A DNA stretch of 64,000 nt from Roseiflexus sp. RS-1 (lineage in GTDB: Bacteria; Chloroflexota; Chloroflexia; Chloroflexales; Roseiflexaceae): positions 1,612,001 to 1,676,000 of the forward strand of contig NC_009523.1 of NCBI RefSeq assembly GCF_000016665.1, in the 5' to 3' direction. The notes beneath the pieces were generated by a model. That model was not told the origin of the DNA. It saw nothing but the letters and a program-made list of their open reading frames with translations, and did no database searches. This document shows positions 9,680-46,953 of this stretch, piece after piece (the first letter of the stretch is position 1; each line of letters starts with the position of its first letter). A program made the position numbers and the translations under genes.

Positions 9680-10237
9680 ATGAGCGACGTTGACCTGGCG
9701 CGATGGCTCTACGAAGGCGCGCTGGCGCTGAGCGAAGGACGACGCGAAGAAGCGCGTCGCCTGCTCATGCAGGTCATCGAGCATGACGAGCAGAATGAGC
9801 AGGCGTGGCTCTGGTTGAGCGGGGCAGTGGATGATCCGGCGGATCAGCAGATCGCGCTGGAGAATGTGCTGGCGATCAACCCGCGCAATGCTGCTGCTCA
9901 GGCGGGGCTGGCGTGGTTGCGTGATCAGGGTCGCAGCGCTTCCGCGTCCGAGCCGATACCTGTCGCGCCTGCCACGCCGCACGACCGGTCGGGTCCGTGG
10001 GTTCCGCCGCCGCCGTATGACGAGAATGACGTCGTCGAGATCATGTGCTGGCAATGTCAGGCGACGCTTTACAGCGTTGCACCGTTCTGCTGGCAGTGCC
10101 ATGCGCCGGTGCATTCATGCAACAACTGTGTGTTCCGCGATGACCCGCGGTGCAAACCGTTGCAGGGACTGACCAACCCCCTGGCGTGGGCAGCGGTCAA
10201 CGAGTGCCCGTGGTGGCGACCTGCGGCGCAGCGTTGA
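9680..10237 (+). CDS. TPR and zinc-ribbon protein
   Basis: A 185-residue cytoplasmic protein. The N-terminal half is a pair of TPR-like helices (LARWLYEGALALSEGRREEA, then EQNEQAWLWLSGAV), a form common in Chloroflexota. A proline-rich linker leads to a cysteine cluster, CWQCQ...CWQCH...CNNC...CK, which should hold one or two zinc ions. The ATG lies 2 bp after the secreted-repeat gene. Its 3' end overlaps the convergent small gene by 41 bp. The likely role is protein-protein interaction; partners are unknown. Confidence 0.8.
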   Translation: MSDVDLARWLYEGALALSEGRREEARRLLMQVIEHDEQNEQAWLWLSGAVDDPADQQIALENVLAINPRNAAAQAGLAWLRDQGRSASASEPIPVAPATPHDRSGPWVPPPPYDENDVVEIMCWQCQATLYSVAPFCWQCHAPVHSCNNCVFRDDPRCKPLQGLTNPLAWAAVNECPWWRPAAQR

Positions 10238-10451
10238 TCGCGGCAGTATCTTCCCATCCTACCCAGAAATTGTTGCGTTGCACGTAACTGGCAACTCGCA
10301 CCCGAATGTCGGGAAGCTGCACCTGATCCGCCTCGTTGACCAGCACGACGTTGGGGCGCGTTTTGAAATGCCGCACATAGGCAGCAACCGCTTCCTCGAT
10401 CTTCCGCGCGACCGGTTTCTTGTTATTGTCATCGAACCACATCATATACAT
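10197..10451 (-). CDS. Small conserved hypothetical protein
   Basis: Starting at MYMMWFDDNNKKPVARKIEE gives 84 residues; a second ATG two codons in is equally possible. The helix KIEEAVAAYVRHFKTRP is followed by VVLVNEADQVQLPDIRVRV and a tyrosine/tryptophan-containing strand YVQRNNFWVGWED. This alpha-beta layout is seen in small conserved Chloroflexota and cyanobacterial proteins of unknown function. The 3' end overlaps the TPR/zinc-ribbon gene tail to tail by 41 bp. No function is proposed. Confidence 0.6.
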   Translation of the reverse strand: MYMMWFDDNNKKPVARKIEEAVAAYVRHFKTRPNVVLVNEADQVQLPDIRVRVASYVQRNNFWVGWEDTAAINAAPQVATTGTR

Positions 10452-10562
10452 AGACGCTGCCTCCACGAACTGCGCTGCTGGCGACTGGCATATCCTGCTC
10501 ACACCGGATTGGAGTACAGCACCAGTATACAAGAACATATGTTCGATGTCAAGGAGTGCAGT

Positions 10563-10975
10563 AAGTGTTCACATTTCTCCCTGGAGCGGGGGCATCCTCT
10601 CTCACGTGTAGAGTTTTTGGGAGAGATGAGCGATGTTTTGCGTTCCCGTGCACCGTTGCCCCTCATCCCCCCTGCCCCCTTCTCCCACACGGGGAGAAGG
10701 GGGAGTCTGGGCATCCTGATGGCTGAAACGGGAGATGGCACGCAGGGGCGTGCCAAAACATCTACCCCTGTGAAATCCCCCCATCCCCTTTCTCCCACAA
10801 GGGGAGAAGGGGGAGTCTGGGCGTCCTGATGGCTGAAACGGGAGATGGCACGCAGGGGCGTGCCAAAACATCGACCGCCGTGAGGAGCGCATCCTGCCCT
10901 CATAGTCACGACGAAGGCGGGACGCCCTCGCTCCCAGGCGCGTGTGTTACCCCAGGTGTGAACAGTTATAGAGTG
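10563..10975. repeat. Dispersed palindromic repeat split by a second repeat family
   Basis: Read on the minus strand, 10975 to about 10890 matches the left part of the repeat at 40005-40107 (GTTCACACCTGGGG through the GCGAGGGCGTCC region). 10603 to 10563 matches its right end (GAGAAATGTGAACAC). About 290 bp of a different repeat, in two copies, sits between the halves. It fills most of the 630-bp gap before the next gene. Confidence 0.75.
10645..10872 (-). repeat. Two tandem copies of a ~110-bp GC-rich palindrome-bearing repeat
   Basis: Segments 10681-10762 and 10791-10872 are nearly identical at a 110-bp offset. Each contains the hairpin CTTCTCCC / GGGAGAAG and the tail GGCACGCAGGGGCGTGCC, itself a hairpin. 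A third, diverged copy in the other orientation is at 46799-46926. Confidence 0.8.
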
Positions 10976-11082
10976 CAGTCGCTGCTATACCCCTCTCGCT
11001 CCTCCTTGACAAATCCCCGATCTTTCCATATCATACACATAATAGTGTCAATATAACAATAATAGTCTGGGGATGACAGGCA

Positions 11083-12450
11083 ATGAGTATCTTCGACAAC
11101 CGTCGCCTGACGAACGAGACGTTCAAACTCGATGCCGAACGGATGCGAACCGGATGGTACTCCGACAAGTACTTCGAGAACATTGTTGGCATGCTGAGCG
11201 CACTGGCGAAGCGTGGCTACCGTTTCGGCGGCATCTCGCCACGGCTGGCGAACGCTGGCATTCCGCTTCACGATGTCGATATCGGCAACATCGAGGTCGA
11301 AATGCAATGGTTCACCCGTCGTCGTCCCTTCTCGGTCGTTGCAGGGGTCGATAAGGCGCTGGCGATGCTGCAACTCTGCACCGGCTACTTCGACGACCAG
11401 GGCAACTTTGTCAATACCTACGACCAGCTCGAAGTTGATGCCGTCCACGACGGCGTGATCGTGCGCTACGACGGCGATCCGCTCAATGTTCAACCGGTGT
11501 TGCGCGTGCGCGGTCGATACCGGGATTTTGCGCTTCTGGAAACGCCGACTCTCGGTACGCTCACCCGCGCCACACGGATCGCCACGAATGTCTACAATGT
11601 GCTGGTGGCGGCGCGCGGCAAGCCGGTGCTCTTCTTTCCGGCGCGCTTCGACGCCCACGAGGTGCAGGCAGCGGATGGTTATGCCTACAACATTGCGGTC
11701 CAGCGCTTTAATCTCGACTATGGCAAGACCCTCGGCGCCTTCATCTCGACCGATGCACAGGGCGACTGGTGGGGTGGATTCGGCGGCGGCACGATTGCTC
11801 ATGCCGCAATTGCGGCATTTCTCGGCGATACGGTCGAGTGTATGCTGGCATTTGCCGAAACGCGCCCGATCGAGATACCGCGGATTGCGCTGATCGACTT
11901 CGAGAACGACTGCATCGGCACGACGCTAGCGGTGATGGATGCCATGTTCCAGCGGTACCGCGAACTGATGGACAGCGGTCAGACGACGGAGGCGCGGCGC
12001 TACAAACTGTTTGGCGTGCGCCCCGACACCAGCGACAAACTGCGCGATGTGAGCGTGCCGCCGCTTGGCAATCGCAAACTGGATATGGGAGTGACGCCGC
12101 GCCTGGTCTTCTACCTGCGGCAGGCGATTGATGACGCCTGGAAACGCTGGACGCTGCCGCCGGAATGGGTGCAACCGGCGCAACAGTGGTGCCGTGACGT
12201 AAAAATCGTCGCAACGGGCGGTTTCGGTCCGAAGAAGATCCGGCGCTTCGAGGAACTTGGGGTGCCGGTGGACATCTACGGCGTGGGGTCGTCGCTCTTC
12301 TCCAACAGCGATGAAGAGGGCACGAACAACGATTTTACCGCCGATGTGGTGCGGGTGAAGATCGGCGACACCTGGTACGATATGGCGAAGGTCGGGCGGC
12401 GCGCCTGCGACAACCCAGACCTGCAGCGCGTCCAGACGCCTCAACGCTGA
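11083..12450 (+). CDS. pncB: Nicotinate phosphoribosyltransferase-family protein
   Basis: A 455-residue type II phosphoribosyltransferase of NAD salvage (nicotinate + PRPP to nicotinate mononucleotide). Family features are the N-terminal domain with TNETFKLDAERMRTGWYSDKY, the barrel segment ALLETPTLGTLTRATRIATN, FFPARFDAHEVQAADGY, and the C-terminal VATGGFGPKKIRRFEELGVPVD / GVGSSL motif that binds phosphate. The Y-S-D near residue 27 fits the family's Y-x-D/K pattern. Substrate choice within the family cannot be read from sequence, so the symbol is tentative. Its last 10 bp overlap the convergent ABC ATPase gene. Confidence 0.85.
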   Translation: MSIFDNRRLTNETFKLDAERMRTGWYSDKYFENIVGMLSALAKRGYRFGGISPRLANAGIPLHDVDIGNIEVEMQWFTRRRPFSVVAGVDKALAMLQLCTGYFDDQGNFVNTYDQLEVDAVHDGVIVRYDGDPLNVQPVLRVRGRYRDFALLETPTLGTLTRATRIATNVYNVLVAARGKPVLFFPARFDAHEVQAADGYAYNIAVQRFNLDYGKTLGAFISTDAQGDWWGGFGGGTIAHAAIAAFLGDTVECMLAFAETRPIEIPRIALIDFENDCIGTTLAVMDAMFQRYRELMDSGQTTEARRYKLFGVRPDTSDKLRDVSVPPLGNRKLDMGVTPRLVFYLRQAIDDAWKRWTLPPEWVQPAQQWCRDVKIVATGGFGPKKIRRFEELGVPVDIYGVGSSLFSNSDEEGTNNDFTADVVRVKIGDTWYDMAKVGRRACDNPDLQRVQTPQR

Positions 12451-22826: not shown

Positions 22827-22992
22827 TCGGACTTTAGATCATGACGCCCTGGCTCCCAGGAGAAATGTGAGCGCTCAGGAAGATGCTGACAGGCGACGAT
22901 GCGTTCCGGGCGATAAATCGGTAACGATAGCGTTGATGAACGGCGCCGGGATGCACGCTCCTGACAGCGCTGCGGTAGTCAGTCCGTCGAGG

Positions 22993-29039: not shown

Positions 29040-29094
29040 CGGCGCCGATTATCTCGATGAGTGTGGCGTCTGTCAACCAGGCGACGATCACAGT

Positions 29095-29180
29095 GATACC
29101 CGCGCCTGGGAGCAGGGGCGTCCCGCCCTCGTCGCGTCTACAAGGGCAAGATGCCCTCGCTCCCAGGAGAAATATGAACA
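29095..29180. repeat. Palindromic dispersed repeat upstream of lepA
   Basis: A partly self-complementary repeat (CGAGGGCGGGACGCCCC against GAGGGCATCTTGCCC, then CTCCCAGGAGAAAT) that ends in TGAACACGTACTTCG. The same repeat stands before larB (40005-40107) and, split, at 10563-10975. It lies about 20 bp upstream of the lepA promoter. Confidence 0.75.
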
Positions 29181-29199
29181 CGTACTTCGTTCCATATCG

Positions 29200-39842: not shown

Positions 39843-40004
39843 GGCCTTGCCCTGATTGCTGTTTCTACTGTGCAGGGTAGCGCCAGGGTATGAAAAGGCG
39901 CTAAACACGGGCATCGAAGCAGGTAACAGTGCGTTCATCAGAATGCCGTGCTGATCGTCAGCGCCAGCACCGCCTGAATGCTCTCTCGCCGGGTAACTGT
40001 TCAC

Positions 40005-40107
40005 ACCTGGGGAACACACGCGCCTGGGGGCGAGGGCGTCCTGCCTTCGTCGCCCCTACGAGGGCAAGATGCCCTCGCTCCTGGGAGAAATGTGAACACG
40101 TACTTCG
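40005..40107. repeat. Palindromic dispersed repeat upstream of larB
   Basis: The full form of the family: GTTCACACCTGGGG at one end and GAGAAATGTGAACACG at the other, with self-complementary GCGAGGGCG / CGAGGGCAAG cores. The two ends are themselves inverted. It abuts the larB promoter region (TATACT at 40132). Confidence 0.75.
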
Positions 40108-45158: not shown

Positions 45159-46115
45159 ATGCCCGCCGCCCTCGACCACGACGCGCTGTTCAAACTCGTG
45201 CTCACCGCCTTCTTCCGCGAGTTCATCGACCTGGTCGCGCCCGACCTGGCCGCCACTCTCGACCCCGCACCGCCCGTCTTTCTCGACAAAGAGAGTTTCG
45301 CCGACCTCTTCGACCCCGACCGGCGCGAAGCCGACCTGGTGGCGCAGGTGCGCCTGCGTCAGCACCCCGCCACGCTGCTGATCCACCTCGAACACCAGGC
45401 GCAGGCCGACGCCGCGCTGGACCGGCGCATGTTCCGCTACTTCGCGCGGCTCTACGACCGCTACGACCAGCCGATCTACCCGATTGCGCTCTGTTCCTAT
45501 CCGCGCCCGCGGCGTCCCGCCGCCGACCGGCACGAACTGCGCGCGGCGCAGCGCACGGTGCTGACGTTCCAGTACCAGGTGGTACAATTAAACCGGATGG
45601 ACTGGCGGGCATATCTGACGACGAGCAATCCGGCGGCGATGGCGCTGATGGCGCGGATGCGGATAGCGCCGGAGGATCGCTGGCGGGTGAAGGCGGCGTG
45701 TCTGCGGCTGCTGGCGGGCGCGCCGCTGAGCGGAGCGCAGCGGCGGCTGATCGGGCAATTTGTGGACATTTATCTGCCATTGAACGCGCGTGACGAACAG
45801 GCGCTGGCGGCGGAAGTGGCGCGCCTGCCGGGCGCGGCGAAGGAGGTTGTGATGGAGTTGATCACCAGTTGGGAGCGGAAGGGACGCGCGGAGGGATTGC
45901 GCGAGGGACGCGCGGAGGGATTGCGCGAGGGGCAGCGTCTGGTGGTGGAACGGATGCTGACGCGCCGGTTCGGGGCGTTGCCATCGGGGGTGCGCGAGCG
46001 CCTGGCGACGCTGACGGCGGACGAGTTGACGGCGCTGGCGGACGCGCTGCTCGACTTCACGAGCCTGGCGGAGGTCGAAGCGTGGCTGGCGGCGTCCCCG
46101 GCGGAGCAGGCATAA
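45159..46115 (+). CDS. Rpn-like PD-(D/E)XK nuclease
   Basis: A 318-residue protein of the recombination-promoting-nuclease / PD-(D/E)XK family. The N-terminal DHDALFKLVLTAFFREFIDL and FLDKESFADLFDPDRREADLVAQV...LLIHLEHQAQ carry the acidic nuclease residues. The middle is helical, then KGRAEGLREGRAEGLREGQR is a short Arg/Glu/Gly repeat, and the end is a DUF4351-like helix bundle (RFGALPSGVRERLATLTADEL). These proteins nick DNA and promote recA-independent recombination. Its 3' half is duplicated immediately downstream. Confidence 0.88.
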   Translation: MPAALDHDALFKLVLTAFFREFIDLVAPDLAATLDPAPPVFLDKESFADLFDPDRREADLVAQVRLRQHPATLLIHLEHQAQADAALDRRMFRYFARLYDRYDQPIYPIALCSYPRPRRPAADRHELRAAQRTVLTFQYQVVQLNRMDWRAYLTTSNPAAMALMARMRIAPEDRWRVKAACLRLLAGAPLSGAQRRLIGQFVDIYLPLNARDEQALAAEVARLPGAAKEVVMELITSWERKGRAEGLREGRAEGLREGQRLVVERMLTRRFGALPSGVRERLATLTADELTALADALLDFTSLAEVEAWLAASPAEQA

Positions 46116-46136
46116 CGAATGGAGGGGATCGCTGTG

Positions 46137-46650
46137 CAATCCGGCGGCGATGGCGCTGATGGCGCGGATGCGGATAGCGCCGGAGGATCGCTGGCGGGTG
46201 AAGGCGGCGTGTCTGCGGCTGCTGGCGGGCGCGCCGCTGACCGGAGCGCAACGACGGCTGATCGGGCAATTTGTGGACATTTATCTGCCATTGAACGCGC
46301 GTGACGAACAGGCGCTGGCGGCGGAAGTGGCGCGCCTGCCGGGCGCGGCGAAGGAGGTTGTGATGGAGTTGATCACCAGCTGGGAGCGGAAGGGACGCGC
46401 GGAGGGGTTGCGCGAGGGGTTGCGCGAGGGACGCGCGGAGGGGTTGCGCGAGGGACTGCGAGAAGGGCAGCGTCTGGTGGTGGAACGGATGCTGACGCGC
46501 CGGTTCGGGGCGTTGCCATCGGGGGTGCGCGAGCGCCTGGCGACGCTGACGGCGGACGAGTTGACGGCGCTGGCCGACGCGCTGCTCGACTTCACGAGCC
46601 TGGCGGAGGTCGAAGCGTGGCTGGCGGCGTCCCCGGCGGAGCAGGCATAA
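46137..46650 (+). pseudogene. Tandem duplicate of the Rpn C-terminal half
   Basis: An open 166-codon frame (ATG 46150) repeats residues ~160-318 of the upstream Rpn gene at a 511-bp offset, with one or two base changes. The Arg/Glu/Gly repeat is longer here (KGRAEGLREGLREGRAEGLREGLREGQR). It lacks the nuclease half. It may be translated, but no promoter or ribosome site was seen. Confidence 0.75.
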
Positions 46651-46651
46651 C

Positions 46652-46798
46652 ATGGGGGCGATGGAGGGGATTACCAGCTGGGAGCGCAAAGGACGGGCGG
46701 AGGGATTGCGCGAAGGACGCGCAGAGGGACTGCGCGAGGGGCAGCGTCTGGTGGTGGAACGGATGCTGACGCGCAGGTTCGGGGCGCTGCCGCTGCTT
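46652..46798 (+). pseudogene. Third, truncated Rpn C-terminal copy
   Basis: MGAMEGITSWERKGRAEGLREGRAEG...RFGALP repeats the same region again, then ends where a dispersed palindromic repeat begins (about 46799). This makes three staggered copies of one gene end. Confidence 0.7.
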
Positions 46799-46926
46799 AG
46801 GGGGGTAGGTTTTTGGGAAGTCCCTTCGTTCCCTCTCTCGTTTCGGGCTTCAGGATGCCCAGACTCCCCCTTCTCCCCTTGCGGGAGAAAAGGGTCGGGG
46901 GGATGAAGGGCAAACGTGCACGGGTA
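46799..46926 (+). repeat. Dispersed ~110-bp palindrome-bearing repeat
   Basis: It matches the reverse complement of the 10645-10872 copies: TCAGGATGCCCAGACTCCCC, the CTTCTCCCC / GGGAGAA hairpin, GGGGGGATGA and CGTGCACGGG. It separates the Rpn remnants from the ornithine-cyclodeaminase-like gene. Confidence 0.8.
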
Positions 46927-46953
46927 TGCCGAAAGTAACATTCTCCCCTGCGA

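Follow-up and report, generated by a model that had tools for sequence, protein, structure and literature searches.

Bacterial MITEs such as Nezha, NEMIS, RUP and ERIC (listed in PMC3733652) are geneless elements of 70–300 bp that have terminal inverted repeats and occur in many copies. Insertion sequences of the IS66 family have GTAA/TTAC ends and make 8-bp duplications (PMC11946415), and the hallmarks of the IS4 family are a D(60-110)D(100-150)E spacing and a Y(2)R(3)E(6)K motif (PMC2266710). REP elements are palindromes into which insertion sequences have repeatedly inserted (PMC1525189). Two repeat families of Roseiflexus sp. RS-1, here called A and B, resemble the listed MITEs in all of the features named, and at one locus a copy of B lies within a copy of A. 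Very probably, A and B are two unrelated MITE families that were moved in trans by DDE transposases, of IS66 type for A and of IS4 type for B, with B nested in A later. The class of each element is already well known, and A and B are further members; a search of the literature found no description of MITEs in Roseiflexus.

Materials and Methods

The window is the whole stretch of 64,000 nt that was analysed, bases 1612001-1676000 of the RS-1 genome (5,801,598 bp, single contig). Profiles of the two families were made from whole copies, giving model lengths of 112 bp (A) and 176 bp (B). Copy counts come from 40 candidates scored per search and are read as minimum numbers.

Results

The Nested Repeat

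The nested repeat is flanked on one side by an open frame at 10197-10538 (minus strand) and on the other by a frame at 11083-12450 (plus strand), which has a weak match to QRPTase_N. The features of the window are given in Table 1. The first-pass annotation had described one palindromic repeat family inserted inside another; this observation is confirmed, and the interpretation placed on it largely holds. The nest is real, with refined boundaries for it and for the whole A copy elsewhere in the window. Two units of about 110 bp are present as described, but they are one B and a partial repeat of its 3′ two thirds, not two copies. The supposed third B copy, beside a truncated gene, does match the B profile but is a fragment that has neither end.

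Table 1. Repeat features of the RS-1 window, and genomic sites of the insertion sequence found in B (window coordinates unless marked genome)
Feature	Position	Strand	Basis
Family A MITE, split by B into 10561-10598 and 10885-10969; ends GTAAGTGTTCACA / TGTGAACAGTTAT	10561..10969	-	profile and reconstruction
8-bp target duplication of A, left: GGAGTGCA	10553..10560	.	flank of rebuilt A
8-bp target duplication of A, right: AGAGTGCA, 7/8 against left copy	10970..10977	.	flank of rebuilt A
Family B MITE, 286 bp, one complete and one partial unit	10599..10884	+	profile, ends, reconstruction
11-bp target duplication of B, left, within A: GGGGGCATCCT	10588..10598	.	flank comparison
11-bp target duplication of B, right: GAGCGCATCCT, 9/11 against left copy	10885..10895	.	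flank comparison
B unit 1, model 1-175	10599..10773	+	profile match
B unit 2, a partial repeat (model 67-176) that is probably a remnant of self-insertion	10775..10884	+	profile match, junctions
Family A copy, uninterrupted; 8-bp target duplication CTCGCCGG / TTCGCCGG	39993..40103	+	profile, flanks
B fragment, model 31-171, without terminal repeats; adjoins truncated DUF4351 gene copy	46801..46940	-	profile
Family A fragment, model 20-112	29093..29185	+	profile
Family A fragment, model 70-109	22836..22875	+	profile
1383-bp insertion sequence in B loops	genome 2168186, 1202112, 5588281, 3158359, 1951583, 1812591, 5651938, 3978031		

The region 45159-46906 of the window holds a Transposase_31/DUF4351 gene (45159-46115) followed by two shorter partial copies (46150-46650 and 46652-46799), the second of which runs into the B fragment.

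Families A and B

The ends of A are GTAA...TTAC, with 8-bp duplications directly outside them. Among 27 paired-end copies, flank identity at 8 bp was 0.60, compared to 0.28 for shuffled flanks (z = 9.7), and no signal of comparable size appeared at other lengths. Copies of B end in CTC[A/T]CA..GTAGA.TTTTTGG, and 35 paired-end copies gave a flank identity of 0.61 at 11 bp, compared to 0.31 when shuffled (z = 11.4); a scan of lengths 4 to 14 found nothing comparable except at 11 bp. Agreement was at least 10/11 in 11 of the 35 pairs, and perfect 11-bp duplications include GGGCTTGCTGC, GCCCCCGCTGC, CGACGGCACGC and ATCGCCGCTTC. The terminal pattern of B occurs 133 times in the whole genome and that of A 77 times, against 0 and 12 for the reversed controls, which rules out chance similarity. 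Full-length B copies number at least 46 in the fetched regions, and A copies with both ends at least 27.

Both families have the features of MITEs: they are short and noncoding, with paired terminal inverted repeats, a target duplication of fixed length and many dispersed genomic copies, and both have ends in common with an autonomous element, which for A is a single element with an apparently split frame. Neither encodes a protein of its own, as had been noted at first reading. A and B would be mobilised by the transposases of these elements. An Rfam search returned nothing but weak, spurious microRNA matches, and a search of the PDB by sequence gave no useful match. The core hairpin of A recurs in four genomes of other genera (G009, G010, G014 and G017), often without the ends of A, and may be a palindrome common to several repeat families.

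The Repeated Units of B

The 110-bp units of B most likely arose by B inserting into itself. Where units adjoin in the fetched regions, they most often join model position 176 to about 66-77; the reciprocal join, from about 73-77 to 1, was seen as well. Both can be accounted for by insertion of B into B at the internal site CATCCCCCC with an 11-bp duplication, the nest then being shortened by recombination. A second B would insert at this site, before or after B landed in A, and recombination would then collapse the B-in-B nest to one and two-thirds units. The alternative is slippage during replication, or unequal recombination among copies of B; it bears on the inner repeat of B alone and leaves the nesting in A untouched. 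In its favour is an array of ~97-bp units at genome 4629523-4630237 with a different junction (model 151 to 55-73), showing that tandem amplification does occur; this explanation is nevertheless rather unlikely for the 110-bp units, since their commonest junction begins at CATCCCCCC, the very site at which a related, B-ended insertion sequence is lodged in a B-like repeat, between perfect 11-bp copies of its target, and since the reciprocal junction (77 to 1) exists, once with a perfect outer duplication. Self-insertion and collapse are read from the junctions, and other recombination could yield the same units.

Order of Insertion

At the locus, the A profile matches 10968-10885 (model 2-85) and 10601-10561 (model 71-112). 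Removal of 10599-10895, that is, B and one copy of its target, leaves an A of exactly 112 bp, the length of the model, and the rejoined halves align over their full length to the A consensus and to the uninterrupted copy at 39993-40103. The flanks of B agree at 9 of 11 positions, and agreement this good or better was found in 0.17% of mismatched pairings. Both duplications in the window are imperfect (B 9/11, A 7/8), indicating that they have aged or been converted.

A gene neighbouring the locus is present in 6/6 Roseiflexus genomes. In one congener (G001), the orthologous place carries an intact A, with a perfect 8-bp duplication (AGAGTGCA on each side) and a single copy of the B target (GAGAGCATCTT); B is absent. 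Its terminal inverted repeats, its 11-bp duplications and this difference between species show that B does move, as had been proposed earlier. In the other four Roseiflexus genomes, no match to either profile was found at this place. The occurrence of A without B in G001, and of neither in the four others, shows that A landed first, before RS-1 and G001 diverged, and that B inserted into it later, in the RS-1 lineage, splitting A and duplicating 11 bp. Recombination or deletion between dispersed repeats could also split an A, and both repeats have many genomic copies, some truncated or rearranged, and the B duplication in the window is only 9/11; but the rebuilt A is exactly 112 bp, B is flanked at either end by a duplication of its typical length, and G001 retains a natural empty site, making this origin highly improbable compared to transposition of B into A.

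The Probable Partner of A

The related genus represented by G007 has an IS66-type element of 1435 bp (981-2415; PF03050, 137 bits). Its left end matches the right end of A at 21/23 positions and its right end the left end of A at 19/23, against 14/23 in the crosswise comparisons. The element has ends GTAC...GTAC and an apparently split frame, and a clear 8-bp duplication was not seen in its flanks; the link between A and IS66 is therefore good but not complete. A itself has the GTAA...TTAC ends and 8-bp duplications of IS66, and the G007 element has a DDE_Tnp_IS66 transposase between matching ends. With the same qualification, A very probably carries the ends of an IS66-type (ISBst12-like) insertion sequence, and it makes 8-bp duplications. 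No intact partner transposase for A was found in the RS-1 genome. The IS66 element of RS-1 itself (451404) was considered as the partner and rejected, as it has a different end (GTAACTGCCTA).

The Probable Partner of B

With the transposase of the insertion sequence lodged in B copies (see below) as query, a decayed relative (37% identity) was found at genome 2830316-2830993, the 3′ side of which runs into a B terminus (70/73 identical). This is the sole B-type transposase found in the RS-1 genome, and no intact one was detected there. In congeners, B-type ends enclose broken or partial relatives of this transposase in three elements (1273, 1351 and 1362 bp). The 1362-bp one, in G003, lies within a B-like repeat and is flanked by a perfect 11-bp duplication, CATCCCCCCTC. 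Complete elements of 1438 and 1446 bp, with perfect 11/11 duplications, are present among public genomes, in Fimbriimonadales KatS3mg018 and an Armatimonadetes genome; their ends (CTTAAAGGGGTAGGTTTTTT / CTCACAGGGGTAGATTTTTT) are identical to those of B at 18-19/22 positions. A more distant element of the same type occurs in Ktedonobacteria brp13.

The KatS3mg018 transposase matches PF01609 above the cut-off and the IS4 model of NCBIfam (NF033591) below the cut-off. Its residues D114, D177 and E279 give D-62-D-101-E, and Y(2)R(3)E(6)K is present as YAKRAWIESGFSDLK, so that both the spacing and the motif are those of the IS4 family. The single gene, the length (1438 and 1446 bp, within 1.2-1.8 kb) and the 11-bp duplication (about 10 bp in the family) also agree. 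The ends and 11-bp duplications match no subgroup in Table 1 of PMC2266710, and no subgroup is therefore claimed. B very probably carries the ends of an IS4-family element, and it makes 11-bp duplications. In Chloroflexus islandicus (1750-1918), the gene of a related transposase continues into short repeats that code for HSAPTRAGS / RPHARGIT and resemble a CRISPR array.

A REP-associated tyrosine (Y1) transposase had been suggested as a possible partner, and A and B would then be REP/BIME palindromes moved without target duplication. Both are palindromic with strong single-strand folding, and RS-1 has two Y1 transposase genes, but the sharp duplications of fixed length, ends that agree with those of DDE-transposase elements, of IS66 type in A and of IS4 type in B, the absence of A copies beside both Y1 genes, and the finding that the sole strong B match near them is a fragment (model 56-150) beside one gene leave this origin unsupported and scarcely credible. 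The lack of target duplication and the adjacent Y1 transposase of REP/RAYT systems are seen in neither family, the Y1 genes have no full copies beside them, and a RAYT was rejected as the partner of either.

An IS4-Type Element in the Hairpin Loops of B

The genome carries eight full copies of a 1383-bp IS4-type element that has ends TTGAAAGGGGGGGGATT and a 428-aa transposase. Each of the eight is lodged in the loop of a B hairpin, four in each orientation as read from the flanks, and their 11-bp duplications are CCCACA[A/C]GGGG or the reverse complement. At four sites (1202112, 5588281, 1951583 and 5651938), the two duplication copies differ at one base: the copy upstream of the transposase gene always has the TT/AA form, and the downstream copy has GT/AC. 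GT/AC is downstream in 8/8. The tandem array of B-like units at genome 4629169-4630237 holds a remnant of this 1.38 kb element. A reading of this element as the autonomous form of B was rejected: its ends (TTGAAAGGGGGGGGATT) are not those of B, an 11-bp duplication of its own flanks it, and it is found in either orientation with respect to B. Tentatively, it may be a specialised parasite of B, itself a MITE from a related IS4-type element, with the hairpin (as structure or as palindrome) as its target.

Discussion

The ends, target duplications, order of insertion and natural empty sites are shown by comparison of sequences, and we infer the enzyme that moved these particular copies of A and B, as well as the self-insertion of B and its collapse. 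The locus is a worked case from the Chloroflexota: the parent types of two MITE families are known, and a natural empty site fixes which of them was inserted first. The case further includes an insertion sequence for which one of the MITEs serves as the landing site, and this target recognition is open to experimental test. The restriction of this insertion sequence to B hairpins is the most interesting loose end; if it is indeed a parasite of B, each layer of mobile elements would offer another a harmless place to land. The findings help to account for some of the non-coding repeats in Roseiflexus genomes and leave the general understanding of transposition unchanged.

Compared to IS66 (ISBst12-like) elements, A has the same GTAA start, TTAC end and 8-bp duplications (PMC11946415), but it is geneless, and its ends are GTAASTGTTCACA where IS66 has GTAAGCG. 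The partner of B resembles the IS4 family (PMC2266710) in PF01609, the YREK motif, the DDE spacing, one gene, a length of 1.3-1.45 kb and a duplication of about one helix turn (11 bp), and differs in that its ends and duplications fall outside all of the listed subgroups. REP elements as targets of insertion sequences (PMC1525189) are likewise palindromes entered repeatedly, as B is in its hairpin loop and in both orientations. B differs from them in being itself a repeat of transposon origin, and its parent transposase and the transposase of the insertion sequence are related. Nezha, NEMIS, RUP and ERIC belong to other parent families; in RS-1, one MITE is nested within another, and a relative keeps the empty site.
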